36,487 nt of DNA, from the IMG/VR virus record IMGVR_UViG_3300042307_000160, positions 1 through 36,487 of that record. One strand, given 5' to 3'. Shown in pieces: positions 1,156 to 20,703 of the stretch. How positions within the stretch are numbered: the first letter of the stretch is position 1; the number at the start of each line of letters is the position of its first letter. This DNA comes from a virus. The notes below the pieces were generated by a model. The model was not told where the DNA came from and did no database searches. It was given only the letters and a program-made list of their open reading frames with translations. Position numbers and translations under genes: made by a program.

Positions 1156-1174
1156 AATATTAAGGCATAAAAAT

Positions 1175-1205
1175 TTTTTTAATTAAATTTCATGTCGTAA
1201 CTTTA
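1175..1205 (+). promoter_or_regulatory. Bacteroidetes-type promoter candidate upstream of the RarA-C gene
   Basis: The box TAACTTTA at 1,198-1,205 fits the -7 element TAnnTTTG except at the last base. A T-run at 1,174-1,180 lies about 19 bases upstream where a TTTG -33 element is expected. The start codon at 1,230 follows an A-rich leader. The same TAnCTTTATAAGAC sequence appears before the 26,355 gene, which supports a functional site. Confidence 0.5.
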
Positions 1206-1229
1206 TAAGACAAACAAATCAAATCAATT

Positions 1230-4674: not shown

Positions 4675-4690
4675 ACGATAATCAAATAAA

Positions 4691-4703
4691 TATATTTATA
4701 AGT
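4691..4703 (+). promoter_or_regulatory. Late-gene box TATATTTA five bases before ATG (copy 1)
   Basis: TATATTTA at 4,691-4,698 is followed by exactly five bases (TAAGT) and the ATG at 4,704. Four other late genes have the same box at the same distance. It fits the TAnnTTT part of a Bacteroidetes -7 element, which would give an almost leaderless mRNA, but could instead be an A/U-rich translation enhancer. Confidence 0.45.
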
Positions 4704-5288
4704 ATGTGGGAAAAACTAACAGTAGGGCAATTTATTAGCCTGTATGACATTGAAGCAAATGAAAACATGAATATTGTTGAGAAACAGCAAAAGATGTTAT
4801 CAATTGTAGAAGGTAAAGCTGAGGAGGAGTATGACAACATAAAGTACAGGCAATTAGTACAAGAATATGCTACAAAGTTAGCCTTCTTTAATCAAGTGCC
4901 GGACTCAAAACCGGTAGACTACCTTGAAGTTAATGGTAAAAGGTACAAGTTTTGTTTTGAATTGCATGAAATTACAGCCGGTCAGTATATTGACATATCG
5001 GCATTCAGTGGTCAGATAATGCAGTTGAATAAAATAGCAGCCTGTTTCTTTTTACCAATGAAAGGAGACAAGTACATGGAGTATGGAAGTATTCCACATG
5101 ATGTAGTAGCAGAGGAACTGTTGGATGCTAAATTTATAGAGGTTTATGGTTGCATGGTTTTTTTTTATCAATTATTCAAGGAATTAATAAACGATACTAT
5201 AATTTATTCAAATCTGACGGAGGAGGCGAAGGAAGCACTACTTCGTTTATGGAAAGATGGGGTTGGGTACATAGCACCAAGCAAGTAG
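4704..5288 (+). CDS. Tail assembly chaperone-like protein, zero-frame product (gpG-like)
   Basis: The 194-residue protein begins with a KLTVGQFISLYDI segment and has a second, similar ITAGQYIDISAF segment near residue 92, a pattern seen in phage tail proteins of this position. Its end (DGVGYIAPSK) looks complete. A nine-T run at 5,158-5,166 offers a T_TTT_TTT slippery site in the correct frame, and the -1 frame is open from 5,132 to 5,431. This arrangement mirrors the lambda G/GT tail chaperone pair. The unusual feature is its location next to terminase, about 10 kb before the tape measure gene. The assignment as chaperone is inference from architecture. Confidence 0.6.
   Translation: MWEKLTVGQFISLYDIEANENMNIVEKQQKMLSIVEGKAEEEYDNIKYRQLVQEYATKLAFFNQVPDSKPVDYLEVNGKRYKFCFELHEITAGQYIDISAFSGQIMQLNKIAACFFLPMKGDKYMEYGSIPHDVVAEELLDAKFIEVYGCMVFFYQLFKELINDTIIYSNLTEEAKEALLRLWKDGVGYIAPSK
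5159..5165 (+). promoter_or_regulatory. Putative -1 programmed frameshift site (T_TTT_TTT)
   Basis: Zero-frame codons here are GTT TTT TTT TAT. Both TTT codons re-pair perfectly after a slip of one base backward, and reading then continues as TTA TCA and on to 5,431. No stem-loop downstream was established by eye. A homopolymer sequencing error would give the same picture, but the zero-frame gene is itself well formed. Confidence 0.55.
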
Positions 5289-5431
5289 CAGACTTTGAAA
5301 ACATAACTGTAAGCGAAGCCTACAATTTGAAAGTTGTTCAGTATCTAAATACCCTAGCATATTTGAAGGACTATAATAAACACAAAGAAGCAGAATTTAA
5401 AAAATGGGAGTTGCAACACAGAAACAAGTAA
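5165..5431 (+). CDS. -1 frame extension of the tail assembly chaperone (gpT-like)
   Basis: This frame has no convincing start; the only candidate is a TTG at 5,150 without context. Slippage at the T run would join 154 residues of the upstream protein to 88 residues from here, giving a fusion of about 242 residues. The extension carries FMERWGWVHS and a helical VVQYLNTLAYLKDY segment, which look like real coding sequence. By analogy with lambda gpGT, the fusion would bind the tape measure protein while the short form coats it. The end overlaps the next gene by 28 bases. Confidence 0.6.
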   Translation, partial: LSIIQGINKRYYNLFKSDGGGEGSTTSFMERWGWVHSTKQVADFENITVSEAYNLKVVQYLNTLAYLKDYNKHKEAEFKKWELQHRNK

Positions 5432-6027
5432 ATGCCTTATTCAATATAGGAGGCAGAAAGTTACAGCCTAATGAATACATTGGTGCTATTGATGATGTGT
5501 TAGGTCAAAGTGTAAAAGGTATCATGGACAAGCTAGGTGTAAAGCTAGTCCAAAAGTTAGAGGAGTTTTCTCCGGCAGATAGTGGCAAGTTGCAATCTTC
5601 ATACTCAGTAATAGGAGTAAAGGAAATTAAGGGAGGATATAGGCTTGAAATTAATGTAGGTGTGGATTACGCAGACTACATTGATAAGGGAGTAAAGGGT
5701 ATTCAAAACAGAAGAAAGACCTTCAAGAATGCAGAAGGTAAATACTATCAGTTTAAAACTTATGGTATGCCACCGGAGGCACTCAAACAGCTAGAAGGAT
5801 GGGCAGCAAGGAAAAACATTGAATTGAAAGCACAGGCTTCAATAGAAGGAAGGAAAAATTTAACACAGATAACAAGTCCTGCCAAAAGATTAGCATATTA
5901 TATCAAGAAATATGGTATTGAAGGTAGGAATTTTAAAAAGAAAGCAATAGATGCAGTAATGCCTGATTTTAATGTACAGTTAAAGGAGATAGGCAATAAC
6001 TCATTGATTTTAAAAATAGTAAGATGA
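5404..6027 (+). CDS. Putative tail completion / HK97 gp10-like protein
   Basis: The 207-residue protein has FSPADSGKLQSSYSV (about residues 52-66) followed by INVGVDYADYIDKGVKG (about 83-99). This spacing of a D/SGKLxxS motif and a VxYAxYxxxG motif recalls HK97 gp10-type proteins that complete the tail or head-tail joint. The C-terminal half is basic. It overlaps both the frameshift extension upstream and, by four bases, the next gene downstream. The family assignment is by motif only. Confidence 0.5.
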   Translation: MGVATQKQVNALFNIGGRKLQPNEYIGAIDDVLGQSVKGIMDKLGVKLVQKLEEFSPADSGKLQSSYSVIGVKEIKGGYRLEINVGVDYADYIDKGVKGIQNRRKTFKNAEGKYYQFKTYGMPPEALKQLEGWAARKNIELKAQASIEGRKNLTQITSPAKRLAYYIKKYGIEGRNFKKKAIDAVMPDFNVQLKEIGNNSLILKIVR

Positions 6028-7205
6028 TAACATTAACACAGCCTAGTATAAGCATAGTTCCGGCATTCAATAGGATTAACTATACAATAGTTAGCAACAA
6101 TGCAAGTAATACAGGTTTCAAGTATGTAGTAAAGGTATATAATACTAGCAACGAATTGATAACGACTGCATATTATGATAGTCCGGCTAATCCCTCAACA
6201 CCTGTTGAGTTTGATGTATCTAAGTATGTATCCACTAGCTTTAATTACAGCAAAGGATTCTATGAAACAGCTACTAATTCAAGTAGTCAGAATATCATTA
6301 AAGGATTCTATTTAAAATGCTATGAATATTACGAGGTAGATGGAGACTATGTTATTATTTTATCTAGTGAGGTAGTATCAGCAGTAAAGTATGCATTTGC
6401 AGGAGCATTCCCTTTGTTAGAGTTAAAGAATTGGTATGCTAATAACACACAGTATTGGGGAAGTAGTAACACAGTATACAAGCCATTGACAGATTGGGAT
6501 ACTATTAAGGTAAGAAGTACTGACTCACAAGTATTTGGGTTTGTTAATACAGGCTTGTTTACTAATTGCGAGTTATTAGTTACATACAGCAATGCAACAA
6601 CGCAGACATACTACATTACCCCTGCCGCAGTTATAAGTCCTAATATTACTTATATCAATGTAACACCGGTATCCTATGGAGCAAATGTAGATAACATACA
6701 GCTATTTGTAAATTGGAATAACGGAAGTGCTAGAAGATACAAGTTTGCAACCTTATACACTCAAAGTTGTGGTAAGTATGACCCTATCAGAATAGCTTAC
6801 ATGAATAAGTTTGGAGTATATGACTTTTTAAACTTTGACCTAGTTAACAAGACTACATTTGATATTGAAAAGAAAGGCTACCAAAGAAATTACACAGGAG
6901 ATATATACGAGGCAGATGGAGTAGTAGTAAAGAATATCAATCCTATATATTATACAAAGGAAACGCAGAAGTGGAAAATTATATCAGATTACCTTACAGA
7001 TGCTCAAAGTGAGTTAGCAAGGGAACTGTATAGTTCTCCGGTAGTGTATATGAATTTGGTAAATGATAACGAGATTACCCCTTCATGGATTCCTGTTAAG
7101 CCTAGTGCAACTACCTATGAAATTAAGAAGACGGCATCAGATAAGTTGTTTAACTTAGAATTGGATTTAGAATTTGGTTTAGTAAACACAAGACAATCAA
7201 TATAG
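6024..7205 (+). CDS. Putative minor tail protein
   Basis: A 393-residue protein with many Thr, Asn, Tyr and Val residues, suggesting a mostly beta structure. I do not recognise a named domain. Segments such as FYLKCYEYYEVDGDY and KYDPIRIAYMNKFGVYDFLNF resemble tail proteins that sit before large hub-like proteins in phages of Bacteroidetes, as far as I can judge. It starts inside an ATGA-type overlap with the tail completion gene and ends one base before the next start. A distal tail or baseplate role is inferred from position. Confidence 0.5.
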   Translation: MITLTQPSISIVPAFNRINYTIVSNNASNTGFKYVVKVYNTSNELITTAYYDSPANPSTPVEFDVSKYVSTSFNYSKGFYETATNSSSQNIIKGFYLKCYEYYEVDGDYVIILSSEVVSAVKYAFAGAFPLLELKNWYANNTQYWGSSNTVYKPLTDWDTIKVRSTDSQVFGFVNTGLFTNCELLVTYSNATTQTYYITPAAVISPNITYINVTPVSYGANVDNIQLFVNWNNGSARRYKFATLYTQSCGKYDPIRIAYMNKFGVYDFLNFDLVNKTTFDIEKKGYQRNYTGDIYEADGVVVKNINPIYYTKETQKWKIISDYLTDAQSELARELYSSPVVYMNLVNDNEITPSWIPVKPSATTYEIKKTASDKLFNLELDLEFGLVNTRQSI

Positions 7206-7206
7206 T

Positions 7207-9381
7207 ATGAGTGCAAGGTTATATGTAGAAGGTTACGAGGTAGATACACTAGGAGACATAGATGTAGACTTTACTTATTCTGTTGCAGACATAAGCGACA
7301 TTGAAAGGAGAAATACATCCTACTCAAAGACTATTGTTTTGCCTTCTACCTCAAAGAATCAGGTTTTGTTTGGTAACATTTTTGATATATCTGTCAGTAA
7401 TGATTACTATGAAGCAGACCCTAATATCCTTGTAAACTTTAACCCTGCTAAACAAGCAAAGGCACAAATATTCCTAGACAATGTTAAGATATTTGACGGA
7501 GTACTAAGGATGAGTAAGATTAATAACAAGGAAGGCGGCATTACCTATGAAGTAAATATGTTTGGTAGATTGAGAGACATATTACATGAACTAGGAGATA
7601 AGACACTAGCAGAATTGAACTTTGACGATTACGACCATGTATGGAACAATAACAATATAGCACAAAGTTGGAATAGAACAGAATGGACTGAGGGTGGACA
7701 AAACTATGTTTACCCCTTAGTAGATTATGGATTTAGTACCAATGGTATAACATACCCTTTGGTTAATTTTAAACCGGCAGTATTTATTAGAGAGATACTT
7801 AAAAGGATATTTGATGCAGCAGGTTTTGAAATAGTAGCACCCTTTTTTAATACTCAGTATTTTAAAAAGTTGATAATGGTTACAGGAGAAAAGACTATTA
7901 CAAAACAGGTAAGCACACTCCTAAACCAATATGGCTATTTTAACCAAGATGATGTAACTACATCGGACTTCTATTCTCATACCTTGTATTTTTCAAGCAT
8001 ACTAAATGATGGATTTACTATTAGCAACAGTGGTAGTAGGTTTACATGGAATAGGGCACAGAACTTAAATACAGGTTTAACTTTTAAGTGTAGCTTATTT
8101 TTCTTGGCTTTGCAAGGAGGCACTAGAACAGATTGGACTTTAAACTTAAAAAAGAATGGTTCTAATATAGATACTAGAAACAGAAGTATAAGATTTTCTG
8201 CTCAGTATCAGACATTCAATTGGGATATTGAAATTACAAGTGCAGTTGATTTAGCAAACGGAGATTACTTTGAAATAGAATTAACAGGTAACTTACAAGA
8301 AAGTGGCTTTATGCCGGGCATACAAACAGAAGTAGTGATTGTAGATGGAGCATCCTTCAAGATTGGTAATACTGTACCTGTTGCTGTTGAACTATCAGAA
8401 GGAGATACAATGAAGATAGGATATACTATGCCTAAGTCAATGAAGCAAAGGGATTTCTTGAAAAGTATTATTTCAATGCATAACTTGTATGTAACTCAGG
8501 ACAAGTTGAGGGATAATGTTTTAGAGATTATACCTTATACCTTATTTTATAGAGCATTTAAAAACGAGGCAGCAGATTGGACTGATAAGTTAGACATGAG
8601 TAGTGATGTAACCATAACCCCTTTGAGTGATTTGTCAGCTAAGGAATACAGGTTAGCATTTGATGATGATAGTGATTATTGGAGTCAGCAATACAAGACT
8701 AAGTTTAATGAAGGATACGGAGAAAAGAGAGAGATAATAGATAATGATTTTGTATTAGATACTAAAACTATCAAGGTTGTATTTGCTCCTCCTGTAATGA
8801 GAGAAGAAGTAGCAGGAAGGGTAATGATTCATTTGTATAAGGTTGAGAATGGAGTAAAAATTAGGGATAACTTTAAACCAAGGTTAGCCTATTGGAAACC
8901 GGAAGTACAATGTCCTACAATGTGGACTATGTCCTTTCAAGCAGGAACGGCATCCTATTCAGCATATCCTTATGCAGGTCATCTAAATAATCCGGAAGAC
9001 CCTGTTAATGATTTATTGTTTGGTACTCCAAGAGAGGTGTATTTCAGTATAGCAGTATACCCCGGAGCAAACTTGTACGGAGCATATTACGAGCCATTGA
9101 TTAGTGCAATCGGAGACAAAGATAGTAGACTATTGCAAGGTAGTTTCTACTTGACTCCGGAAGATATAATGGAACTAGATTTTAGGAGGATTATAAAAGT
9201 AGGCAATCACTATTATCAATTGCAAAAAGTAGACAAGTATAATCCGGTGGCTAATACTCTTAGCTATGTTAGTTTGTTTAAAATCCTAGCAGAGGTACAG
9301 CCTTTGGAGTATGAATACATACTGTTAGAGACTGATTACTATATGTTGCAGGAAAACGGAATTGATAAGTTTTATATTTAA
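7207..9381 (+). CDS. Large tail/baseplate structural protein
   Basis: This 724-residue protein starts with ARLYVEGYEVDTLGDIDVDF and has ISDIERRNTSYSKTIVLPST (about residues 29-48), then QVLFGNIFDIS, a pattern recurring in tail proteins of Bacteroidetes phages. It probably forms part of the tail tip or hub linking the tube to the fibre encoded next. No lytic enzyme motif is visible. The function is inferred from size and from its place between a minor tail protein and the fibre. Confidence 0.55.
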   Translation: MSARLYVEGYEVDTLGDIDVDFTYSVADISDIERRNTSYSKTIVLPSTSKNQVLFGNIFDISVSNDYYEADPNILVNFNPAKQAKAQIFLDNVKIFDGVLRMSKINNKEGGITYEVNMFGRLRDILHELGDKTLAELNFDDYDHVWNNNNIAQSWNRTEWTEGGQNYVYPLVDYGFSTNGITYPLVNFKPAVFIREILKRIFDAAGFEIVAPFFNTQYFKKLIMVTGEKTITKQVSTLLNQYGYFNQDDVTTSDFYSHTLYFSSILNDGFTISNSGSRFTWNRAQNLNTGLTFKCSLFFLALQGGTRTDWTLNLKKNGSNIDTRNRSIRFSAQYQTFNWDIEITSAVDLANGDYFEIELTGNLQESGFMPGIQTEVVIVDGASFKIGNTVPVAVELSEGDTMKIGYTMPKSMKQRDFLKSIISMHNLYVTQDKLRDNVLEIIPYTLFYRAFKNEAADWTDKLDMSSDVTITPLSDLSAKEYRLAFDDDSDYWSQQYKTKFNEGYGEKREIIDNDFVLDTKTIKVVFAPPVMREEVAGRVMIHLYKVENGVKIRDNFKPRLAYWKPEVQCPTMWTMSFQAGTASYSAYPYAGHLNNPEDPVNDLLFGTPREVYFSIAVYPGANLYGAYYEPLISAIGDKDSRLLQGSFYLTPEDIMELDFRRIIKVGNHYYQLQKVDKYNPVANTLSYVSLFKILAEVQPLEYEYILLETDYYMLQENGIDKFYI

Positions 9382-9385
9382 AAGT
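9373..9385 (+). promoter_or_regulatory. Late-gene box TATATTTA five bases before ATG (copy 2)
   Basis: TATATTTA at 9,373-9,380 overlaps the stop of the upstream gene and is followed by AAAGT and the fibre ATG at 9,386. Box and spacing are the same as at the 4,704 gene. Confidence 0.4.
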
Positions 9386-12300
9386 ATGTCAGATAAAAGG
9401 ATAAGTCAGTTAGTTGAGAGGGTAAGTATAGCAAATAATGATGTACTCCCTATTGTAGCTTTAAATGCTGCCACGACTAACAAAGTAACGATTAGTACTA
9501 TACAGGATTGGATGCAAACACACCTAGACCATGGTGTAACTAGCATTGGTATAACTATTGGTAGCACCGGCACAGATATAAGTGTAACAGGTTCTCCGGT
9601 TACAGCAGCAGGTAATATTACAATTAATGTTCCGACATCAAGTGCAGCAAACAGAGGTTTACTCAGTGCAGCAGATTGGAGTACATTTAACAATAAGGTA
9701 GGTACAGCTAGAAGTATCAATACAACAGCACCACTACAAGGAGGAGGAGACCTAAGTGCAAATAGGACTTTGTCAATTACTCAGGCAGGTGTATTAGCAG
9801 ATGGTTATTTGTCTAGTGTAGATTGGAATACCTTTAACAATAAGCAACCGGCATTAGGTTATACCCCTGTTAATCAAACAAGGGAGTTAACTATTAATGG
9901 CACAACTTACAACCTGTCAGCAGATAGGACTTGGAATGTAGGTACAGTTACATCTATTGGTGTAAGTATGCCTTCTGCATTTACGGTAAGTAATAGTCCA
10001 ATTACAGGAGCAGGTACAATAGCAATCACAGGAGCAGGTAATAGCACACAGTATATTGATGGTACAGGTTCATTGCAAACATTCCCAAGTATTGTAGGTA
10101 ATGCAACTAATTTAATTAGAGAGGTGTACAATGATAGTGGTGCAACAATGACCAAAGGAACTATTGTTTACATCAATGGAGGACAAGGTAACCTGCCTAC
10201 TATTGCAAAGGCACTAGCAACAGGAGATAGCACATCTGCACAGACATACGGAGTAGTTAGAGCAGACATAGGTAATATGTCTAATGGATATATAACAGTA
10301 GTAGGAGATTTAATGGATATGCCTACTAATGGATTCGCAGTAGGTACTCAGTTATATTTAAGTGGTACAACAGCAGGAGCATTCACAAGTACAAAGCCAT
10401 ACGCACCAATACACTTAGTTTATGTAGGTATAGTTACAAGAAGTCATCCAACCCAAGGAGTAATAGCTATCAAGATACAGAATGGCTATGAAATGGATGA
10501 ATTGCACAATGTAGCAGCACATTTACCTAATGATGGAGATATACTTAAATATGTTTCAAGTACAGGTCTATGGACTAAAACAGCAGGTAGCACTACAAAC
10601 ATCACAGAAGGCACAAACTTGTACTATACAGATGCAAGGGCGAGGACAGCAATCAGTGAGACAGTAACAGGATTAGATTATAATTCAAGCACAGGTGTAC
10701 TTAGCACAAGTGCAGGTTATGGTATCCCTACAACAGCTAGTCAGACTAATTGGGATGCAGCATATAATGATAAGATTAATAGTGCAGCAGTAACAGGTAC
10801 GACTACTAAAACATTGACATTAACCCAACAAGATGGTGGTACAATCACAGCAAGTTGGACTGATATAAACACAGATGCAGTTAGTTCTGTATTCGGAAGA
10901 ACAGGAGCAGTAGTAGCTGTATCCGGAGATTACAATACAGATTTGGTTACAGAAGGTACAACTAACTTGTACTTTACAAATGCAAGAGCAAGGTCTGCAA
11001 TTTCATTAACTACGACAGGTAGCAGTGGAGCAGCAACTTATGTTAGTGGTGTATTGAATGTACCTAATTATACATTGGCAGGATTAGGAGGAGAACCGGC
11101 TATTACAGCAGGTACAACAGCACAGTATTGGAGAGGAGATAAGTCTTGGCAAACTTTAAATACTACAAATGTAGTAGAAGGCACAAACCTTTACTTTACT
11201 AATGCAAGGTCTAGGTCAAGTATTAGCTTGACTACTACCGGCACAAGTGGAGCAGCTACTTATAATGTAGATACAGGTGTATTAAATATCCCTAGTTATG
11301 TAGGAGGAGTAACCTCAGTATTTGGTAGAACAGGTGCTGTTGTAGCAGCAAGTGGAGATTATACTACAACCCAAGTAACAGAAGGAACAAATTTATATTA
11401 CACAGATGCAAGAGCAAGAGCAGCAATAACAGGTACAAGTCCTATTAGTGTATCAGCAGGTGTAGTTAGTATTCAACAAGCAACTGCATTGCAAAGTGGT
11501 TTTTTAAGTAGTGCAGATTGGGTTACTTTCAATAATAAGCAAGGAGCAATAACCTTAACGACAACAGGAACTAGCGGAGCAGCAACCTTTTCTAGTGGCA
11601 CATTAAATATCCCTAATTATACTTTTGCAGAAACAGATACTTTGCAAAGTGTAATTTTAAGAAATGGTACAACAAACACAGGATTTGTTATAACCAATGG
11701 TAATAGTACTTATACTGTACCTTCTAATACAAATGTTCCTGTTATTTATATGTTGAATACAGGAGCAAATCCAAATGCTCATGCTGTTATATCATTAAGA
11801 ACATTAGGAGAAACAGGTGGTGACCCATTTATTTCACTTGATATTAATGGTGTATTAGGATGGTCAGTAGGTGTAGATAACTCTGATGGAGATAAATTTA
11901 AAATCGGTAAAAGTTGGGCAGAAGTAGGTATTAATACATATTTTACTATTGATACAAGTGGAAATTCAACATTTGCAGGTAGTGTTAGAGCAGCAGGTTT
12001 AATATCAAAAGATTACTTAATATTAGAAGCATCTAATAGTACGAATAATTGGTATTTGTATACTTACACAGATAACACTTTAAGATTTAACTATGGTGGT
12101 GCAGGTGGAGATGAATTTATAATGACAACCGGAGGAGGTTTAACTATTTTAGGTAATTTTACTGCTGCTAATTATAGCGGTACACATAGTGGTTCATCAA
12201 GTGGAACTAATACAGGAGACCAAGATTTAAGTGGATATGTAACATTAGGAACTGCTCAAACAATAAGTGGAGCAAAAACATTTAGTAATGATGTATTAGT

Positions 12301-13822
12301 TCTAGGAGGTCGTGTTAATATTTCAACAGGTGGAGCAAATACTTATGGTGTTGTATCAGGTTATTCTATTAATAATAACCATCAAATGACCATGAGAGCA
12401 AACATAACAGGACCTACTTCAAACCCTACATATACGGCAGGGCATCAGATGTGTTTTGTTGAATATGCAAATAATAATGATACAGAAGGATGGTTTTTCA
12501 AATCATCTGCTGAAACTAATTATACAGAAGTAGCAAGAATTACAAGGGCAGGTATTAATTGGAATGGTAACACAGTATTGCACTCAGGTAACTATAACAA
12601 CTATGCACCTACTAAAACAGGAGGAGGAGCAAGTGGTACTTGGTCAATTACATCAGGAGATTCAAATGCATTAGGTGGTGTTGGTCCGGGTGGTTATACT
12701 AGAAGAAATTATACAGGATTTACTTTTCCAACAGGTTCTTATACAGGTTGGTATAGAATAGCAAGAAGTGGTCAGCAAAATGGTGGTTCAGGAGCAAGGG
12801 GTGCTTTTAAAATTTATGTATGTGCAACAGGTAACTATCTTAATCCTGCACAAGATGAAATTTGTGGATTAAAGGATTGGGCAACAGGTTTGTATATTGC
12901 AAGTGTAACAGGTTATGGTGGTACTCCATTCCAAAATTATAGACTAACTTATGATTCAGACTTCACATATCTAGAAGGATATATAAGTTACTATTTTGGA
13001 GGAGACCAAGGTTTTGATGTAGTATCAATGGATAATGGTTTTTCAGGTATGACATGGGTGCCAATGACAACATTAACTGCAAGTACAACTTCTAGTGGTG
13101 CAGTAAGTATTGGTAAAGTTAGTGGAGGTACAGCATTTCCATATATCAGAAGTGGTGGTGGTTTATTTACAGGAGTAACTGAATTTACAGGTGTAGCACA
13201 AGATAATGTAGGATTAGTAAGAATTGTAAATACACAAAGTGGTAATGGAGAACATTTCCCTGCATTGCAAGTAATTAATGTAAATGGTAATCATAGTTAC
13301 GGAATTATTGCAGAATTTAGAACACAAAATGTAGATACAGGAGATAGACCTAGTATTTTGTTTAGTAGAGGAGGTGGACCTAATTGGCAGTTTGGAATGG
13401 GTGCTTATTCAGGTAATAGTGATAGATTTGGTATAGGATATAGGTCTACTTATTTGCCTGATACATGGCCTAGTATGAGAATGGATATGGATACCTCAGG
13501 TAATGTAACATTTGCAGGAGATGTAACTGCATTTTCAGATGCTAGATTAAAAACAGATGTACAAGTTATTGATAATGCTATTGAAAAAGTTAAGCAAATT
13601 AGAGGTGTAACTTTTAAAAGAAATGATGAGATTGACCACAATGTAGGTAGAAAACATACAGGAGTTATAGCACAAGAGGTATTGAATGTTTTACCGGAAG
13701 TAGTATCTATGAGTGATACAGGTATGTACAATGTTGCTTATGGTAATATGGTTGGTTTGTTAGTTGAGGCTATTAAGGAACAGCAAAAGGAAATTGATAA
13801 ACTTAAAAAACAAATTGCATAA
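9386..13822 (+). CDS. Tail fibre with C-terminal S74 intramolecular chaperone
   Basis: The ATG at 9,386 gives 1,478 residues; the frame is open slightly further upstream but without a good start. The N-terminal MSDKRISQLVERV region probably attaches to the tail. Residues about 90-750 contain shuffled repeats: TEGTNLYYTDARAR (four versions), SVFGRTGAVVAxSGDY (two), SADWxTFNNK (three) and LTTTGTSGAAT (three). The last about 95 residues are an S74 endosialidase-type chaperone: SDARLK places Ser1384 and Lys1389 as the likely self-cleavage pair, followed by GVIAQEVLNVLPEVV and a coiled-coil end. It should trimerise, fold the fibre and then be cut off. This is the likely host receptor-binding protein. 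Confidence 0.9.
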   Translation: MSDKRISQLVERVSIANNDVLPIVALNAATTNKVTISTIQDWMQTHLDHGVTSIGITIGSTGTDISVTGSPVTAAGNITINVPTSSAANRGLLSAADWSTFNNKVGTARSINTTAPLQGGGDLSANRTLSITQAGVLADGYLSSVDWNTFNNKQPALGYTPVNQTRELTINGTTYNLSADRTWNVGTVTSIGVSMPSAFTVSNSPITGAGTIAITGAGNSTQYIDGTGSLQTFPSIVGNATNLIREVYNDSGATMTKGTIVYINGGQGNLPTIAKALATGDSTSAQTYGVVRADIGNMSNGYITVVGDLMDMPTNGFAVGTQLYLSGTTAGAFTSTKPYAPIHLVYVGIVTRSHPTQGVIAIKIQNGYEMDELHNVAAHLPNDGDILKYVSSTGLWTKTAGSTTNITEGTNLYYTDARARTAISETVTGLDYNSSTGVLSTSAGYGIPTTASQTNWDAAYNDKINSAAVTGTTTKTLTLTQQDGGTITASWTDINTDAVSSVFGRTGAVVAVSGDYNTDLVTEGTTNLYFTNARARSAISLTTTGSSGAATYVSGVLNVPNYTLAGLGGEPAITAGTTAQYWRGDKSWQTLNTTNVVEGTNLYFTNARSRSSISLTTTGTSGAATYNVDTGVLNIPSYVGGVTSVFGRTGAVVAASGDYTTTQVTEGTNLYYTDARARAAITGTSPISVSAGVVSIQQATALQSGFLSSADWVTFNNKQGAITLTTTGTSGAATFSSGTLNIPNYTFAETDTLQSVILRNGTTNTGFVITNGNSTYTVPSNTNVPVIYMLNTGANPNAHAVISLRTLGETGGDPFISLDINGVLGWSVGVDNSDGDKFKIGKSWAEVGINTYFTIDTSGNSTFAGSVRAAGLISKDYLILEASNSTNNWYLYTYTDNTLRFNYGGAGGDEFIMTTGGGLTILGNFTAANYSGTHSGSSSGTNTGDQDLSGYVTLGTAQTISGAKTFSNDVLVLGGRVNISTGGANTYGVVSGYSINNNHQMTMRANITGPTSNPTYTAGHQMCFVEYANNNDTEGWFFKSSAETNYTEVARITRAGINWNGNTVLHSGNYNNYAPTKTGGGASGTWSITSGDSNALGGVGPGGYTRRNYTGFTFPTGSYTGWYRIARSGQQNGGSGARGAFKIYVCATGNYLNPAQDEICGLKDWATGLYIASVTGYGGTPFQNYRLTYDSDFTYLEGYISYYFGGDQGFDVVSMDNGFSGMTWVPMTTLTASTTSSGAVSIGKVSGGTAFPYIRSGGGLFTGVTEFTGVAQDNVGLVRIVNTQSGNGEHFPALQVINVNGNHSYGIIAEFRTQNVDTGDRPSILFSRGGGPNWQFGMGAYSGNSDRFGIGYRSTYLPDTWPSMRMDMDTSGNVTFAGDVTAFSDARLKTDVQVIDNAIEKVKQIRGVTFKRNDEIDHNVGRKHTGVIAQEVLNVLPEVVSMSDTGMYNVAYGNMVGLLVEAIKEQQKEIDKLKKQIA
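10604..11430 (+). repeat. Imperfect coding repeats in the fibre shaft
   Basis: Four copies of a TEGTNLYYTDARAR-type unit begin near 10,604, 10,949, 11,171 and 11,377. Between them are two copies of a SVFGRTGAVVA unit (near 10,886 and 11,312) and copies of LTTTGxSGAAT (near 11,008 and 11,228, with a third near 11,551). The repeats are similar but not identical in DNA, so recombination between them could change shaft length. Confidence 0.8.
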
Positions 13823-14709
13823 TGGCTTTACCATCCACAGGAAGTTTAAGTATTAGCCAAATTAAGGCAGAATTAGTTTCTAGTTCAAATAGTCTTAGAG
13901 CATTAAGTTCTTTGGCAGGGTTTACTACTCCTGATTCTATTAGTGAGTTTTATGGTTATCCCGGTGGATACTTTTATCCTGCTGTGCCTTTTATTAATGG
14001 ATTTGATTTTTCAGTTAGTAGTAAGTATTCAAATAGCGGTTCAGCTATTGATGACCTTAGTACTTATAATTGGGATGGAACTTTTGTAACAGGTACAGGT
14101 AATGGTACACCTGCAACGATTGACCAATATACATCAACTGCTCCCGGCTATATGACAATTCCCGGAGACTCTGCTCAAAAGTCTATTAGGCTTAATGACA
14201 ACATGAAATTCGGAGGAACTTCTAATTATACTATAATAACATGGTTTAGAGTAAGTGCATTTAGTTCTAGTTTCCCCGGAATTGTAGCAGCAGAAGGTAG
14301 AATAGGTAGTACTCCAATTGGTTATTCTATGTATCTAAGAAGTAGTCCTGATTTTTCAATTTTACATACAAGATATAATGCAAGTTCAGGTTCAGATGGT
14401 ACTTGTTTATTAACATGGGGTTCGGGAGGAATACCTGCATTTGCTTATAATACATGGTATATGTCAGCTATTAGATTTGATGGTTCTACTATGCAGTTAA
14501 GATTATACGCAGGTGGTTCAGGATATAATGGTAGTTTATCTTATCCTAATCCTTTGTCTACAAGTACAAGTTGGAGTGCTTTTTTAGGTTTACGATATAA
14601 TAATTGGTTTAATGGAAGAATAGGATATTATGCAGTATATGGCTCTCCTTTAACAGAAGCTATGTTAGATACAGTATTTACAAATACTAGAACAAGATAT
14701 GGTGTTTAA
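13822..14709 (+). CDS. Tail-associated LamG/concanavalin-like protein
   Basis: A 295-residue protein whose first 50 residues (SLSISQIKAEL, SLRALSSLAGFTTPDSISEFYGY) look like a short attachment module common at the start of phage tail proteins. The rest has the pattern of a LamG-3/concanavalin-like jelly roll: a sequence like YTIITWFRVSAF, later NTWYMSAIRFDG, and GRIGYYAVYGSPLTEAML at the end. Such domains bind carbohydrate or surface proteins, so an accessory receptor-binding role is likely. Its start overlaps the fibre stop by one base (TAATG). Confidence 0.65.
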   Translation: MALPSTGSLSISQIKAELVSSSNSLRALSSLAGFTTPDSISEFYGYPGGYFYPAVPFINGFDFSVSSKYSNSGSAIDDLSTYNWDGTFVTGTGNGTPATIDQYTSTAPGYMTIPGDSAQKSIRLNDNMKFGGTSNYTIITWFRVSAFSSSFPGIVAAEGRIGSTPIGYSMYLRSSPDFSILHTRYNASSGSDGTCLLTWGSGGIPAFAYNTWYMSAIRFDGSTMQLRLYAGGSGYNGSLSYPNPLSTSTSWSAFLGLRYNNWFNGRIGYYAVYGSPLTEAMLDTVFTNTRTRYGV

Positions 14710-14746
14710 TTAGAAAAATAATTTATAACTTTATAAAAAAATAGAA

Positions 14747-15022
14747 ATGAAAAAAATAGAAGCAGTATCAATTTGGTATGATGGTAGCTTTAAAGATGCT
14801 ACCCTACTAGATATTACAGTAAACAGAATTACACTTGGTGTACAAGCATCAATTAGTTTTAGATTGTATTTTGCAAACGAAAGCGACCCTATGTATCCTG
14901 CAATCCAATTAAATAATGGAGATTTGACTATGGATGGTCAAGATTATTTAGATTGGGGTAGTGATGATGAATATGTATGGCAATGGGTAGCAAATAAACT
15001 GAATTTAGTAATTATTTCATAA
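14747..15022 (+). CDS. Hypothetical small tail-region protein
   Basis: A 91-residue acidic protein I do not recognise. It has VSIWYDGSFKDATLLDI near the start and DYLDWGSDDEYVWQWVANKL near the end, and no membrane segment. A TAACTTTA box at 14,726-14,733 lies 13 bases before the ATG, so a new transcript might begin here. Position between receptor-binding proteins and the tape measure suggests a structural or assembly part. Confidence 0.6.
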   Translation: MKKIEAVSIWYDGSFKDATLLDITVNRITLGVQASISFRLYFANESDPMYPAIQLNNGDLTMDGQDYLDWGSDDEYVWQWVANKLNLVIIS

Positions 15023-15040
15023 TCATAAAAAACAAAAACC

Positions 15041-15313
15041 ATGGATTTTAACAAACCAATGAAGGCACTTAACGGTGTATCAGCAAAAGACGGACAAGGC
15101 AATGATATTACATTAGGTAATATTTTAGCACAGCAATTAGTAAGTGGTAGTAAAGGAGATGCCGTAAAGTATTACGGATGGGCATTGAAACTACATGAAG
15201 GTAAGGACATTGAACTAGACAAGTCCGATACTCAAACACTGAAAGATTTTATCACAACCAATGAGCAGTTGACTATTCTAGCTAAGGCACAACTGCTTGA
15301 ATTATTTGATTAA
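15041..15313 (+). CDS. Small protein preceding the tape measure gene
   Basis: This 90-residue protein has TLGNILAQQLVSGSKGDAVKYYGWALKLHEGKDIELDKSDTQTLKDF-like helical sequence (reported here in outline, residues 25-75), ending in LTILAKAQLLELFD. Similar small acidic proteins occur near the tails of many phages. Its stop overlaps the tape measure start (TAATG), the position where tail chaperones usually lie, so it may help tape measure folding. I do not recognise a named family. Confidence 0.6.
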   Translation: MDFNKPMKALNGVSAKDGQGNDITLGNILAQQLVSGSKGDAVKYYGWALKLHEGKDIELDKSDTQTLKDFITTNEQLTILAKAQLLELFD

Positions 15314-17502
15314 TGGCAGAAGAAAATAAAGTCATATTAGATGTAGATGTCAAACCTCTGAAACTCCAATTACGAGAATCAGTTGAAGGTTTACAGGCAG
15401 CTAGACAAAAGTTTGGAGAATTTAGTCAGGAGGCAATTGCTGCTGCTCAAAAGGTTGCTGCTATCAAAGATGAGATAGAGGCTACTAATGAACAGGCACA
15501 ATTGTTTGACCCCGGCAAGAGGTTTCAGGCTTTGACAACAGCAGCTAGTACTGCGGCAGGAGGTATTGCTGCGGTACAAGGTGCTATGGCTTTATTTGGT
15601 GGAGAGAGTGAGAATGTAGCTAAAACATTGCAGAAAGTACAAGGTGCAATGGCATTGTCTCAGGGTTTGTCTCAGTTAAAAGACATAGGCAAAGTAGGAG
15701 AACAGCTAAAAATTTCATTCAAAGGATTAACTGCCGGAGTAGATGGATTCAAGAAAGCACTTATCTCAACAGGCATAGGTGCTTTGGTTGTTGCAGTAGG
15801 ATTACTTGTAGCTTATTGGGATGACATTAAAGGATTAGTAAGTGGAGTAGGTAGTGAGCAAAAGAAACTTAATGAAGACTCTAAGGAAAACCTAAAAACC
15901 CAAGAAGAAAAATTAGATGCTATTGATGGACAGTCTAATCAGTTAAAGTTACAAGGTAAGAGTGAGAAAGACATACTTAACTTAAAAGTAAAGCAATCTG
16001 AGGAGGCAATCAAGGCTGCTGAAATTAATCTAGCTAATGCTAAGGCTACTAAGGATGCACAGGTAAAAGCAGCAGAAAGGAATAAGCAAATCCTTCAAGG
16101 TATTATAACATTTTTGTCTGCACCTTTGGTAGCAGTATTGGCAATGGTTGACCAAGTAGGTAAGGCATTAGGTAAAGACTTTGGTTTAGCCGAAGGATTT
16201 ACAGGTGGTTTAGCTAAGATGGTATTTGACCCGGCAGAAACTGCAAAAGAAGGAGATAAAACAATTAAAGAAGCAGAAGCTAGTCTAAATAAACTTAAAG
16301 AAAAGAAGGCAGGTTTTCAGGTAGCAATACAAGGGATTGATAAGGCAGCAAGAGATAAGACAAAGGCTGATAATGATGCTCAACAAAAGAAAGAAGATGA
16401 GGCTAATGCTATTTTAAGAGAAGCTAACAAAAAGTTAAAGTCTCAGCAAGAGCAAGAACTTTTAACTATTGAAGAATCTTATAAGGAAAAAAGAAAGAAG
16501 TTAAAAGAAGCAGGTATTAAGGATAATGGAGATTTAGCAGCAGCAGAGCAAAAGGAAAAGGCTGCAATAACTGATAAGTATGCTAAGGAAGAAGCAGCAA
16601 AAGTTGAGGCTTACGAAAAGGAACTTGCTAAGATTAGATTAGAAACTAAGTTAGCAGCTATCAAGGATGAGAATGAAAAGGCAAGAGCAGAGTTAATAGC
16701 AGGATTTGAGCAACAAAGACAAGATATTGATGCTAATGAAAAGTACACAGCAGAGCAAAAGACTGCTTTAAAATTAGCCTTAGCTACTAAGGAAGAAGAA
16801 GCACTAGCTGCCTTAAAATTAGCAGCAGACCAAAAGAAGGCAGAAGCTGACATTACTGACTTAGATAAGGAAATTACTAAGGCACAAGGTAAGTTTGATG
16901 TTGAAAGGTCTTTGTTAGACAAAAAGGATGCTTTACTTAAAGAATCATTTAAAAATGGTTTGATTACAGAGAAGGCTTACAACGAAGGAGTAGAGGCAAA
17001 TGCCAATGCAAGAATAGAAATTGATAAGAAAGAGACAGCAGCTAAGGTTGAGAATGCTCAAAAAATCTCTGCATTGCTTAGTGGTTTGTCAGATGTAGTA
17101 GGTAAGGAAACAGCAGCAGGTAAAGCCTTTGCAGTAGCTAGTGCAACTATTGACACATACCTAGCAGCAACTAAGGCATATCAATCAATGGTTGGTATTC
17201 CAATTGTTGGACCTGCATTGGCGGCAGTAGCGGCAGGTGTAGCAGTAGCAGGTGGTATCAAAAATGTTAAGTCAATCTTATCAGTAAAGACTCCGGGAGG
17301 TGGAGGAGCAGCATCAGCACCTTCTGTATCAGCAGCAGCACCACAAGTTACCTCGGCAGTTCCTACCTTAGGCAATAGTCCTGTAACATCAATAGCTAGT
17401 GTGATGCAAAACCAAAAGCCACTGAGAGCATTTGTTGTAGAAAGTGAGGTAACAGGTACACAAAAGAGGGTAGCCGATATTGAACGCAGAGCAGGTTTCT
17501 AA
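15313..17502 (+). CDS. Tape measure protein
   Basis: A 729-residue protein made of long charged helices rich in Ala, Lys, Glu and Gln (residues 20-60 and about 310-620, coiled-coil-like), broken by hydrophobic stretches at about 150-168, near 258-275 and near 635-655. This is the standard look of a phage tape measure, which sets tail length and inserts into the host membrane. It is on the short side for the group, suggesting a tail of roughly 0.1 micrometre if the usual relation of length to residues holds. It follows a small coupled gene and precedes the protease. Confidence 0.85.
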   Translation: MAEENKVILDVDVKPLKLQLRESVEGLQAARQKFGEFSQEAIAAAQKVAAIKDEIEATNEQAQLFDPGKRFQALTTAASTAAGGIAAVQGAMALFGGESENVAKTLQKVQGAMALSQGLSQLKDIGKVGEQLKISFKGLTAGVDGFKKALISTGIGALVVAVGLLVAYWDDIKGLVSGVGSEQKKLNEDSKENLKTQEEKLDAIDGQSNQLKLQGKSEKDILNLKVKQSEEAIKAAEINLANAKATKDAQVKAAERNKQILQGIITFLSAPLVAVLAMVDQVGKALGKDFGLAEGFTGGLAKMVFDPAETAKEGDKTIKEAEASLNKLKEKKAGFQVAIQGIDKAARDKTKADNDAQQKKEDEANAILREANKKLKSQQEQELLTIEESYKEKRKKLKEAGIKDNGDLAAAEQKEKAAITDKYAKEEAAKVEAYEKELAKIRLETKLAAIKDENEKARAELIAGFEQQRQDIDANEKYTAEQKTALKLALATKEEEALAALKLAADQKKAEADITDLDKEITKAQGKFDVERSLLDKKDALLKESFKNGLITEKAYNEGVEANANARIEIDKKETAAKVENAQKISALLSGLSDVVGKETAAGKAFAVASATIDTYLAATKAYQSMVGIPIVGPALAAVAAGVAVAGGIKNVKSILSVKTPGGGGAASAPSVSAAAPQVTSAVPTLGNSPVTSIASVMQNQKPLRAFVVESEVTGTQKRVADIERRAGF

Positions 17503-17513
17503 TATTTATATGT
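17501..17513 (+). promoter_or_regulatory. Late-gene box AATATTTA five bases before ATG (copy 3)
   Basis: AATATTTA at 17,501-17,508 follows the tape measure stop directly and is separated by TATGT from the protease ATG at 17,514. An ATTGAAC sequence lies about 17 bases upstream, as it also does at copy 4. Confidence 0.4.
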
Positions 17514-18104
17514 ATGGACAAAAATTTACCGTTATATAGGTTGGTAATTACTGACAATGAAGAAGGACAGGAAGAAGTAGACTATGTAGCATTAGTTGAG
17601 TATCCGGCTATTCAAAAAAACTTTGTTGCATTTAATAACAGAATGAAGTTTGTAGCCAATGATGAGCAGAGAATAGTATCAGGCCCTTTGATGATTGCAG
17701 ACCTACCTATTTATAGGAGAGATGAAGAAGGAGAATACTATGTAGTATTTACAGGAGAGGAAATTAAGAAGATAGTTCAAAGATTCTTTAAAAAAGGCTA
17801 TCAGTCAAAAGTTAATGTAGAACATGAAAAGGCTATTGATGGTGTATATATGTTTGAAAGCTACATTATTGACAGAGCAAGAGGTGTTAATCCACCAAAA
17901 GGCTTTGAAGACATAGCAGATGGTTCATGGTTTGGTAGTTTCAAGGTTGAAAATGATAAGATATGGGAGGAAGTAAAGGCAGGTACATTTAATGGATTCT
18001 CTGTTGAAGGCTTATTTAGGTATGAAAGGACAGGCAAAGTAGTAACTCCGGAGGAGGAAGTAATGAATGAGATATTTAAAATTTTAGCACAAATTGAACA
18101 TTAA
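17514..18104 (+). CDS. Prohead protease, XkdF-like
   Basis: The 196-residue protein starts with PLYRLVITDNEEGQEEVDYVALVEYPAI, followed by GPLMIADLPIYRRDEEGEYYVVF, NVEHEKAIDGVYMFESYIID and later GSWFGSFKVENDKIWEEVKAGTFNGFSVEG. This corresponds to the XkdF-like family encoded before scaffold and capsid genes; H (in NVEH) and S (in GFSVEG) are candidate catalytic residues. It would degrade the scaffold and trim the capsid protein. Its position before the scaffold-like gene agrees. Confidence 0.75.
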   Translation: MDKNLPLYRLVITDNEEGQEEVDYVALVEYPAIQKNFVAFNNRMKFVANDEQRIVSGPLMIADLPIYRRDEEGEYYVVFTGEEIKKIVQRFFKKGYQSKVNVEHEKAIDGVYMFESYIIDRARGVNPPKGFEDIADGSWFGSFKVENDKIWEEVKAGTFNGFSVEGLFRYERTGKVVTPEEEVMNEIFKILAQIEH

Positions 18105-18113
18105 ACAATAATT

Positions 18114-18126
18114 AATATTTAGTATT
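18114..18126 (+). promoter_or_regulatory. Late-gene box AATATTTA five bases before ATG (copy 4)
   Basis: AATATTTA at 18,114-18,121 is followed by GTATT and the scaffold ATG at 18,127. ATTGAACA occurs 17 bases upstream of the box, as before copy 3. Confidence 0.4.
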
Positions 18127-18735
18127 ATGAACGCAAAAGAAGCATTAGTAGAAATCAAGAAATTGTTATTTACAGAAAATGTAGATACACAAGCAAAATT
18201 CGCATTGACCGAAGGAAAATTGGTTGATGGAACTGTCGTTAGCTACGACCTAGAAACAGCAGAAATCTATGTTGTTGGTGCAGATGGAGTTTCAGTACCT
18301 GCTCCTGTTGGAGAACATCAATTAGAATCAGGAGAAATCGTTGTTGTAATTGAAGAAGGTAAAATTGCCGAAGTTAAAAAGGCAGAAGAAGCACCAAAAG
18401 TAGAAGTAGAAGTTGAGGCGGCTGATGACACAAAAGAAGATGTACCTGCGGAAGAACCTAAGAAAGATGAAGCAATGGCTAAGTTTGAGGAGGCAGTAGC
18501 AAGTTTATCAGCAAAAGTTGATGACTTAGCAGCACAGGTAGATGAACTAAAAAAGAAGAATGAATCAATGAAAGAAGCAGTTAAGTTATCTGCTGAAATT
18601 ATTGAGTCATTAGCAAAAGAACCAAGCGACAAGGCAATTACACAGCCAAATAATTTTCAGAAAGTATTAAAGTCTGAAAAGGATGACAGATTTAACAATT
18701 TACAAAAAGCATTTCAAAATTTAAAAAACAAATAA
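18127..18735 (+). CDS. Scaffold-like protein
   Basis: A 202-residue, strongly acidic and then charged protein. Residues about 1-80 form a small beta-rich part, 80-120 a Glu/Lys/Pro-rich linker, and about 120-165 a coiled coil (KVDDLAAQVDELKKKNESM). The basic C-terminus (FNNLQKAFQNLKNK) could bind the capsid protein. Composition and place between protease and major capsid gene are typical of phage scaffolds. The stop is one base before the capsid gene start codon. Confidence 0.7.
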   Translation: MNAKEALVEIKKLLFTENVDTQAKFALTEGKLVDGTVVSYDLETAEIYVVGADGVSVPAPVGEHQLESGEIVVVIEEGKIAEVKKAEEAPKVEVEVEAADDTKEDVPAEEPKKDEAMAKFEEAVASLSAKVDDLAAQVDELKKKNESMKEAVKLSAEIIESLAKEPSDKAITQPNNFQKVLKSEKDDRFNNLQKAFQNLKNK

Positions 18736-18736
18736 G

Positions 18737-19687
18737 ATGGCATTAGATTTATCAGCACTTACGAACTATGTTAAAGAAAATGAGCAACAGCTAACTGCTG
18801 CCGCTATCTTCTCAGCAAAGACAGCTTCTTTAATTGAAGCAAAAGGTAATGTTCAAGTTGGCATCAAGTCAGCAGAGACAATCAATATTTTAACAACAGA
18901 TGCAGTATTTCAATCAGGTGGTACTTGCGGTTTCAATGCTAGTGGTACTACTACTATTACGCAAAGAACAATTACAGTAGGTAAGATTAAGATTCAAGAA
19001 GCAATCTGCCCTAAGGTATTTGAAGCTAAGTACACTCAAAAAGCATTGAAAGAAGGTAGCCAATACGATTATATGGCTTATGCAACTGAGTATAGCAACC
19101 AAAAGATTGCTAAAATTGGTGCAGCATTAGAAACTGCAATTTGGCAAGGCGATACCGCTAGTGGTACAGCTAACCTAAATAAATTTAATGGTTTTGCGAC
19201 TATTATTAACGCACTAGGTTTTGGTGGTGCAGGAGACCCTATCAATGGTAATGTTAGTGCATTAACTACTTTGACTAAGGCAAATGTTAGAACTGCTGTT
19301 GATGAGATTTTCTTATCAATCCCTGCTGCATTGTTAGACAAAGATGATTTTGTAATCTTCGCAGGTAATGATACATTTAGAGAATACATTGTAGCACTTC
19401 GTGAAGCTAACTTATTCCACTATGCAGTTGATGCTGCTAACATGGAAGTTACAGTTCCCGGTACAAATGTTAAGTTAATCGGTGTTAACGGATTAAATGG
19501 TACTGACTACATGGTTGGTGTATGTATGAGCAATATGTATCTTGGTACAGATATGTTAAACGAGCAAGATAAGTTTGAGTTGTTCTATGCAAAAGAGGCA
19601 GATGAAATGAGATTTGTAGTAGAATTCAAACTAGGCTGTCAGTTAGCATTTACTGATGAAGTTGTATTTTGGAAGAAAGCATCTTAG
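18737..19687 (+). CDS. Major capsid protein
   Basis: The 316-residue protein follows protease and scaffold genes and has a helical N-terminal region (LSALTNYVKENEQQLTAAAI), a central SQYDYMAYATEYSNQKIAKIGAALETAIWQGD segment (outlined), and a C-terminal part with FELFYAKEADEMRF and FKLGCQLAF. This is the normal layout of an HK97-fold capsid protein in phages of this type. Fold assignment rests on position and general pattern. A hairpin lies 16 bases beyond the stop. Confidence 0.8.
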   Translation: MALDLSALTNYVKENEQQLTAAAIFSAKTASLIEAKGNVQVGIKSAETINILTTDAVFQSGGTCGFNASGTTTITQRTITVGKIKIQEAICPKVFEAKYTQKALKEGSQYDYMAYATEYSNQKIAKIGAALETAIWQGDTASGTANLNKFNGFATIINALGFGGAGDPINGNVSALTTLTKANVRTAVDEIFLSIPAALLDKDDFVIFAGNDTFREYIVALREANLFHYAVDAANMEVTVPGTNVKLIGVNGLNGTDYMVGVCMSNMYLGTDMLNEQDKFELFYAKEADEMRFVVEFKLGCQLAFTDEVVFWKKAS

Positions 19688-19702
19688 TAGAAAAAATATA
19701 AT

Positions 19703-19724
19703 GGGCGGAGGTAATACTTCGCCC
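19703..19724 (+). terminator. Hairpin after the major capsid gene
   Basis: GGGCGGAG at 19,703-19,710 pairs with CTTCGCCC at 19,717-19,724 (eight pairs including one G-T) around a six-base loop. It is not followed by a T run, so it may be an attenuator or an mRNA 3'-end stabiliser for the abundant capsid message, not a full terminator. Confidence 0.55.
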
Positions 19725-19746
19725 TTAACTAATAAAATTAAATAAA

Positions 19747-20250
19747 ATGGCATGTGCATTAACACAAGGGTATACCCTAGATTGTAAGGATAGTATAGGT
19801 GGCTTACAGTCAGTATATTTTGCTCCATGGGAAGATTTAGGTACTGTTACTGTCGCAGCAGGAGTTGTTACTACTCTTACAATGGATGTTGGTAAGAAAT
19901 TTTACCAATATGAACTTGTAAAAGAAAGTTCTAACTTTGCAGAAGCAGTAAATACTAATGTACAAAACGGTACAGTATTTTATGCTCAAACTTTGGAAGT
20001 AATTTTGAATAAATTACAAGTTAACACAAGAAATGAAATCTTGTTGTTAGCAAAGAATCGTTTAGCTGTTATTGTTGTAGATAATAACGGAGACAAATGG
20101 TTTTTAGGTCAAAGCTACGGCTTAGATTTAACAGGTGGTGGTAGTGGTTCAGGTACAGCTTTTGGAGACAGAAGTGGTTACACTTTAACCTTCACAGGTA
20201 ACGAAAAGGAGTTAGCTCCAAAAGTTACTGCTGCTATACCTATCGTTTAG
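19747..20250 (+). CDS. Putative structural protein (possible tail tube or head decoration)
   Basis: A 167-residue protein beginning with ACALTQGYTLDCKDSIGGLQSVYFA, a start I associate with structural proteins of Bacteroidetes phages. The middle is beta-rich and helical (AQTLEVILNKLQVNTRNEILLLAKN), followed by a Gly/Ser loop (GGGSGSGTAFGD) and GYTLTFTGNEKE. These features would suit a tail tube subunit, which is otherwise not identified in this genome. It lies between two hairpins, so may be a separately transcribed, abundant product. Role is inferred. Confidence 0.6.
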   Translation: MACALTQGYTLDCKDSIGGLQSVYFAPWEDLGTVTVAAGVVTTLTMDVGKKFYQYELVKESSNFAEAVNTNVQNGTVFYAQTLEVILNKLQVNTRNEILLLAKNRLAVIVVDNNGDKWFLGQSYGLDLTGGGSGSGTAFGDRSGYTLTFTGNEKELAPKVTAAIPIV

Positions 20251-20287
20251 GATTTGGTTTGTTTTAATATGGTAGTAAACATTAGTT

Positions 20288-20313
20288 CCCCCTTTTTAGG
20301 GGGTTCTTTTTTT
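20288..20313 (+). terminator. Rho-independent terminator
   Basis: CCCCCT at 20,288-20,293 pairs with AGGGGG at 20,298-20,303 around a four-T loop, followed by TTCTTTTTTT. It would end the transcript from the capsid and 19,747 genes. A late-gene box lies 20 bases downstream. Confidence 0.85.
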
Positions 20314-20333
20314 ATGTACAAGTTTGACTAATT

Positions 20334-20346
20334 TATATTTAATTGT
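20334..20346 (+). promoter_or_regulatory. Late-gene box TATATTTA five bases before ATG (copy 5)
   Basis: TATATTTA at 20,334-20,341 is followed by ATTGT and the ATG at 20,347. It lies directly after a strong terminator, so some promoter is needed here; a TTTA ends 19 bases upstream of the box. This copy best supports a promoter reading. Confidence 0.5.
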
Positions 20347-20703
20347 ATGGTTGCTATAAGAAAAGGACAAAATAATCACATTTATATTGCATTAACTGAT
20401 AAAAGGTTGACAAGTAGCAATGCTTATACCTTTAAATTTGTTAATGAAGTAACTAATGAAGAAATTAGTTTAAATTTGACTGATATTAGTAGTTTTACTG
20501 CTAGATATTCAAAGTTTCTAATCCTAACAGCATCTTTTAACGCAAGTACAGTAGGATTTTGGAGATATTATGTTACACAGACCGGCAGTGGTGCTACTGT
20601 GATAGCAACAGGAAAGATGGAATTGACTGCGGACAATTTGAGCAATACGGAGGTAGTTAGATACCAAGGTTATGTTGGCTCATATAAAACATATACAGTA
20701 TGA
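20347..20703 (+). CDS. Hypothetical structural-region protein
   Basis: A 118-residue, beta-rich protein with TFKFVNEVTNEEISLNLTD, GFWRYYVTQTGSG and a C-terminal SNTEVVRYQGYVG. I do not recognise a named family. It overlaps the portal gene by four bases (ATGA), so it is translated with it and is probably a head or connector component. Confidence 0.6.
   Translation: MVAIRKGQNNHIYIALTDKRLTSSNAYTFKFVNEVTNEEISLNLTDISSFTARYSKFLILTASFNASTVGFWRYYVTQTGSGATVIATGKMELTADNLSNTEVVRYQGYVGSYKTYTV

Follow-up and report, generated by a model that had tools for sequence, protein, structure and literature searches.

The window analysed here is the whole of the 36,487-base virus record IMGVR_UViG_3300042307_000160, from an uncultivated freshwater phage, and the subject is a short element found immediately upstream of five of its genes. 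These all lie within the structural cluster: the gene after the terminase large subunit (4704), the tail fibre gene (9386), the head protease gene (17514), a scaffold-like gene (18127) upstream of the capsid-like gene 18737, and the pre-portal gene (20347). The initial annotation claimed that each of these starts is preceded, at exactly five bases, by the box [A/T]ATATTTA, and that the box always stands before structural genes. Both statements are verified here, WATATTTA starting at 4691, 9373, 17501, 18114 and 20334 with five bases to the ATG in each case.

The 8-mer as such is not enriched in the window, with 12 copies on both strands against 13.1 expected, and it is the position of the copies that is striking. 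Five of the ten plus-strand copies end exactly five bases before an ATG. When gaps of 0-12 bases were scanned, the plus strand gave a gap of 5 five times and gaps of 1 and 10 once each, and no minus-strand copy was followed by an ATG at any of these gaps. The spacing was also compared with shuffled sequence, as the initial annotation had proposed. When the upstream regions of 51 genes were dinucleotide-shuffled, any 7-mer stood in register at four genes in 7 of 1000 shuffles and at five genes in none, against the five genes at which ATATTTA is in register in the real sequence.

The WATATTTA box is only half of the signal, the other half being an upstream [A/T]AC block that the initial annotation missed. 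The five two-block elements, which are putative promoters, are all on the plus strand. That of gene 4704 (4674..4706) consists of AAC at 4674-4676, N16, TATTTA at 4693-4698, N5 and the ATG, and both blocks are present in 37 of 38 distinct relatives. The element of the tail fibre gene (9355..9388) has AAC at 9355-9357, N17, TATTTA at 9375-9380, N5 and ATG (17/17 relatives), and sits inside the 3' end of gene 7207. The head protease element (17483..17516) has AAC at 17483-17485, N17, TATTTA at 17503-17508, N5 and ATG (43/43), and that of the scaffold-like gene (18097..18129) has AAC at 18097-18099, N16, TATTTA at 18116-18121, N5 and ATG (40/40). The pre-portal element (20317..20349) has TAC at 20317-20319, N16, TATTTA at 20336-20341, N5 and ATG (48/48). 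It is worth adding that the mechanical open reading frame (ORF) call begins the tail fibre at TTG 9362; homologs and the promoter position favour ATG 9386.

The full pattern [AT]AC-N16-17-TATTTA-N5-ATG occurs five times in the window against 0.04 expected, and at most once in any of 300 Markov sequences. In a leave-one-gene-out test, a weight matrix built from the remaining four genes of other phages, near relatives excluded, ranks the window sites third to fifth, and that of 4704 eighth, among 72,870 positions on both strands. A sixth AAC-N16-TATTTA match, at 34220-34245 within ORF 34047, has no ATG behind it and a matrix score of 9.8, and is probably due to chance.

Relatives were collected as 80 loci from a scan with the capsid-like protein (18737) and further loci from scans with gene 4704 and with ORF 33589, a sigma-like gene described below. 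They are correlated by descent, so that the counts are not independent tests; the leave-one-gene-out, codon and three-lineage comparisons lessen this problem of kinship and do not remove it. Across the distinct boxed upstreams of the relatives, [A/T]AC stands 16-17 bases before TA[TCG]TT[AC], followed by 5-6 bases and ATG, in 185 of 186. The motif search in related phages that the initial annotation called for thus finds core, spacing and the added [A/T]AC block conserved at the five genes. The conserved core is TATTTA, with the variants TACTTA, TAGTTA and TATTTC. TANTTA at a gap of 5 is found in 15/25 distinct ortholog upstreams for 4704, 7/17 for 9386 (with a further 10/17 at a gap of 6), 38/38 for 17514, 34/36 for 18127 and 37/43 for 20347, and several of the boxed upstreams without TANTTA have TATTTC instead. 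In a survey of 176 loci, no ortholog group besides the five boxed ones had TANTTA at gap 5. The 8-mer with its five-base gap holds in the window, but the conserved unit across relatives is TANTTA with the upstream [A/T]AC, and the gap before 9386 orthologs is 5 or 6. The additional TANTTA-N5-ATG sites that were inspected in relatives divide in the same way: the eight at boxed genes all have AAC, and the six away from boxed genes all lack it, so that these extra boxes were not taken as further sites. A TTTG/TTG element around -33, seen by eye at 17514, 18127 and 20347, was likewise set aside, the shared part being AAC/TAC instead.

At two of the elements the AAC block falls within the preceding gene, and there it is kept by codon choice, which points to a constraint beyond the protein. 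The gene preceding 17514 ends in D-I-E-R-R-A-G-F-stop, and the C of the first Arg codon completes AAC. In orthologs this first Arg is CGN in 43/43 and the second is AGA or AGG in 41/43; the window gene itself favours AGA/AGG (14 of 16 Arg codons). Upstream of 9386 the Asn codon is AAC in 17/17, though the gene uses AAC 21 and AAT 30 times, and the tail codons are TTT TAT ATT TAA, again in 17/17.

The initial annotation also placed a strong terminator just before the last box. It is indeed present, at 20288..20313 on the plus strand, as an intrinsic terminator (CCCCCTTTTTAGGGGG followed by a T run) directly upstream of the 20347 promoter, and a terminator-like hairpin is found in 48/48 orthologs. 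In these orthologs the hairpin and T run end mostly 38-45 bases ahead of the ATG, and because of this a promoter for 20347 is expected in the short stretch between, in which there is little besides the two blocks. A terminator-like hairpin is also seen between the capsid-like gene 18737 and gene 19747, in 24 of 47 orthologs.

The distance between the box and the ATG bears on where transcription would start. The -7 element of Flavobacterium johnsoniae promoters lies 4-5 nt from the start site (PMC6847099), and its F. psychrophilum counterpart occupies -12 to -5 (PMC9723704). Since five nucleotides separate box and ATG here, matching the Flavobacterium box-to-start spacing, the predicted start site falls on the A of the ATG. 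Promoter boxes about 10-12 bp ahead of start codons are taken to mark leaderless genes (PMC3160421), and the core begins 11 nt before the ATG at all five genes. Every boxed upstream has a pyrimidine immediately ahead of the ATG, compared with 37% on average in the other groups of genes; a pyrimidine is expected at position -1 of a transcription start site. In such hosts leaderless mRNAs are otherwise uncommon, making up 5.5% in F. psychrophilum (PMC9723704).

A candidate for the protein that reads these promoters is encoded by ORF 33589 (33589..34074, plus strand), a sigma-like protein of 161 aa. Its annotated start in the window is TTG, against ATG in most relatives. It follows a nuclease gene (33222..33602, plus strand) that matches phrog_824, the same family as the VRR-NUC gene preceding gp35 of Nonlabens phage P12024L. 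Residues 25-157 match TIGR02937, the sigma70-ECF (extracytoplasmic function) family, with E 0.0026, below the curated threshold, and 23 of 24 homologs match as well. Its low-confidence models find their best Protein Data Bank (PDB) matches among sigma factors, for the most part region 4 of the ECF type, with region 4 of sigmaE, AlgU and SigD among them at Z 8-9.5; region 2 is not resolved. A PDB sequence search with the sigma-like alignment had no sigma factor among the matches listed, and tblastn for sigma-like relatives in phage records gave none. An ortholog is present in 11/11 near-complete relatives of the window lineage. The element shared by the late genes is accompanied, in every near-complete relative, by an ortholog of this sigma-like gene; ORF 33589 itself scores below the curated cut-off.

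The closest isolate found is P12024L, whose portal is 29% identical. Together with P12024S it belongs to the Nonlabens (Persicivirga) phages of the genus Inhavirus, which have in common with the window the PHROG families of protease/scaffold (24921), capsid-like protein (11320) and the next gene (19091). P12024L resembles the window in its order of nuclease then sigma-like gene and in its promoter design, and differs in having CGTTA for TATTTA and a single gene for protease and scaffold. The pattern at its structural genes is AAC-N16-17-CGTTA-N6-7-ATG, and all seven plus-strand genome matches to AAC-N16-17-CGTTA have an ATG 6-7 nt on. The pattern recurs in relatives of P12024L, and CGTTA-N7-ATG occurs not at all or once in genomes of the window lineage. 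A third lineage (L185), with a capsid-like protein 67% identical to that of P12024L, has AAC-N16-AGTT[TA] upstream of three genes: protease, pre-portal (where it again follows a T run) and post-terminase. The protease and pre-portal promoter positions are common to all three lineages, and in all three the -10 block stands 11-12 bases before the ATG; its letters are uniform within a genome and different between genomes. Such a concerted change of the -10 block is the pattern that a lineage-specific recognition factor would produce. Each lineage encodes a protein with an ECF-sigma match: gp35 of P12024L matches Sigma70 region 2 (E 1.4e-5) and follows the VRR-NUC gene, L185 has a sigma70-ECF match (E 4.4e-5), and that of the window lineage is below the curated cut-off.

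The best-supported reading, which we consider probable, is that the five boxes are the -10 halves of leaderless late promoters used by host RNA polymerase together with ORF 33589. Each promoter would then have the form [A/T]AC-N16-17-TATTTA-N5 with the start codon at the expected transcription start, and the late mRNAs would lack a leader or begin no more than about 1 nt ahead of the AUG. All five would most likely be read by host RNA polymerase with the small ECF-like sigma protein of the phage bound to it, and ORF 33589, encoded in the early/replication half, would switch on head, connector and tail genes together. This was the first option in the initial annotation, a late promoter without a leader that the phage's sigma-like protein may help to read. 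It is favoured by the second block at a promoter-like distance, the restriction of the conserved pair of blocks to these genes, the terminator and the change between lineages. We infer the promoter nature, the start at the A of the ATG and the role of ORF 33589 as the reading sigma from sequence. A number of observations weigh against it. ORF 33589 scores 17.4 bits against a curated TIGR02937 cut-off of 42.9, it has no Pfam sigma match, and its two models are of low confidence, with predicted local distance difference test (pLDDT) values of 56 and 65. The profile comparison between the families of ORF 33589 and P12024L gp35 is not significant, so that their pairing rests on gene order, weak family matches and the promoter parallel. 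The -10 block of the window is TATTTA and not the CGT typical of ECF promoters, which the CGTTA of P12024L does have, and in 10 of the 17 orthologs of 9386 the box and the ATG are six bases apart.

That an AT-rich word has clustered by chance would fit with the lack of enrichment of the 8-mer itself, but this is rejected by the positional enrichment and the conservation, with the leave-one-gene-out ranks also speaking against it, and we regard its probability as practically nil. A reading in which the same leaderless promoters are used by a host sigma, whether an ECF sigma or the primary sigma of Bacteroidota acting on a degenerate TAnnTTTG box, is unlikely. In its favour, the sigma function of ORF 33589 is putative, and TAnnTTT-A is matched by three of the window's boxes (TATATTTA) out of five, at the -7 box position for a start at the ATG. 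However, the A of TA(nn) is not kept in relatives (TGTATTTA and TCTATTTA before 20347), the box never ends in G, and the upstream block that is kept is AAC/TAC and not TTTG. TAnnTTTG is absent within 40 nt from every boxed upstream examined. Moreover, the -10 letters change in concert between lineages, the early-region boxes of the same phage (at 1198, 14726 and 26312) read TA[AT]CTTTATAA, and every near-complete relative encodes ORF 33589.

Two further explanations concern the role of the start codon. Transcription from the promoters as described might begin several bases inside the gene or upstream of it, giving another start codon or a short leader. The gap of 6 in part of the 9386 orthologs would fit this, but the gap of 5 is kept in nearly all orthologs of the other four genes, a pyrimidine stands at -1 in all boxed upstreams, and the -10 block keeps its 11-12 bases to the ATG across three lineages; we consider a shifted start distinctly unlikely. 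The other option in the initial annotation was a translation enhancer, that is, an AU-rich box at a fixed distance from the AUG for Bacteroidota ribosomes that do not use Shine-Dalgarno pairing. The box-ATG distance is fixed, and Bacteroidota hosts tune initiation via AU-rich, Kozak-like upstream bases (PMC6847099). Against this, codon choice preserves the second block, which at about -31 to -28 is farther upstream than a ribosome is expected to read; the capsid-like gene 18737 has no box; related lineages have CGTTA or AGTT[TA] instead at the same genes; and one site is directly behind a terminator. Translation enhancement is on this evidence disfavoured, and very unlikely.

Phages phiEco32 and 7-11 encode sigma factors that read their late promoters (PMC8948821). 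Those of 7-11 are bipartite with a 16-bp spacer (GTAAtg-16-aCTA) and start 6-9 bp from the -10 block, and between relatives of these phages the positions are conserved and the sequence and sigma diverge (PMC8948821). The window resembles them in its sigma (here a candidate), late structural genes, bipartite putative promoters with a spacer of similar length (16-17 bases here) and positions conserved between relatives. It differs in that they have enterobacterial hosts, other block sequences and no leaderless design described, the present system being predicted from sequence. AAC is the usual -35 core of ECF promoters, and the [A/T]AC block of the 185 upstreams stands 16-17 bp before the -10 block. 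Among ECF (group 4) promoters, those of E. coli sigmaE and Thermoanaerobacter RpoE1 likewise place a short block with AC at its end about 16-17 bp ahead of the -10; CGTC is a common ECF -10 motif, and GGAACTT is found for sigmaE (PMC3397946). The window has TATTTA in place of CGTC and lacks the GG before AAC, whereas the -10 block of P12024L begins with CGT, as theirs does. Bacteroidota primary-sigma promoters are TTTG / TAnnTTTG (PMC6847099, PMC9723704). They share with the window an AT-rich -7 block and the 4-5 nt spacing from box to start (in the window, box to ATG), and differ in that the phage core is TANTTA with AAC/TAC upstream and in that host leaderless mRNAs are about 5%.

The initial annotation described early promoters with a TAnnTTTG-like box and a long leader. 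A separate class is indeed seen, with leaders of about 13-54 nt, but its boxes read TA[AT]CTTTATAA and not TAnnTTTG. These promoter-like sequences, TA[AT]CTTTATAA(G), at 1198, 14726 and 26312 and also at 30798 (TATCTTTATAG), lie before genes 1230, 14747, 26355 and 30860, and in relatives TAACTTTATAA is found again upstream of the 14747 and 1230 orthologs. They are possibly host-sigma promoters. To the left of the terminase genes, a cassette at 583-3105 looks by eye as if it encodes a methyltransferase, a deacetylase of PIG-L type with an AHPDDE motif at 1835, and, at 2497, a WbqC-like protein; it possibly serves surface or nucleotide modification.

Neither of two scans of bacterial genomes, made with the capsid-like and sigma-like alignments, turned up a relative, and phage records gave no DNA or capsid-protein match to the window; the host phylum is presumably Bacteroidota, judged from the nearest phages only. 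In the open-access literature we found no earlier description of these promoters and no late promoter described for Bacteroidota-type phages. Late promoters read by a phage sigma, of the phiEco32 and 7-11 kind, are known; what is new is the Bacteroidota-type setting (with its presumed host), the fusion of promoters to start codons, and the concerted divergence of the -10 block between lineages. A wider proposal, on which we are evenly poised, is that this is a late regulon with promoters fused to start codons, in which the phage sigma would set both transcription and translation starts, and that sigma and -10 block have co-diverged into at least three specificities, TATTTA, CGTTA and AGTT[TA], at homologous positions. 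The analysis gives a concrete and testable scheme of late control for Bacteroidota-type phages, naming the sites and a candidate sigma, and it reaches the cultivated phage P12024L, where both can be tested. Under this scheme the late genes would all be expressed from leaderless mRNAs, in hosts that seldom make them. Expression signals in Bacteroidota are not those of E. coli, and the pairs of sigma and -10 block would serve as useful promoter tools there if they prove to be orthogonal.

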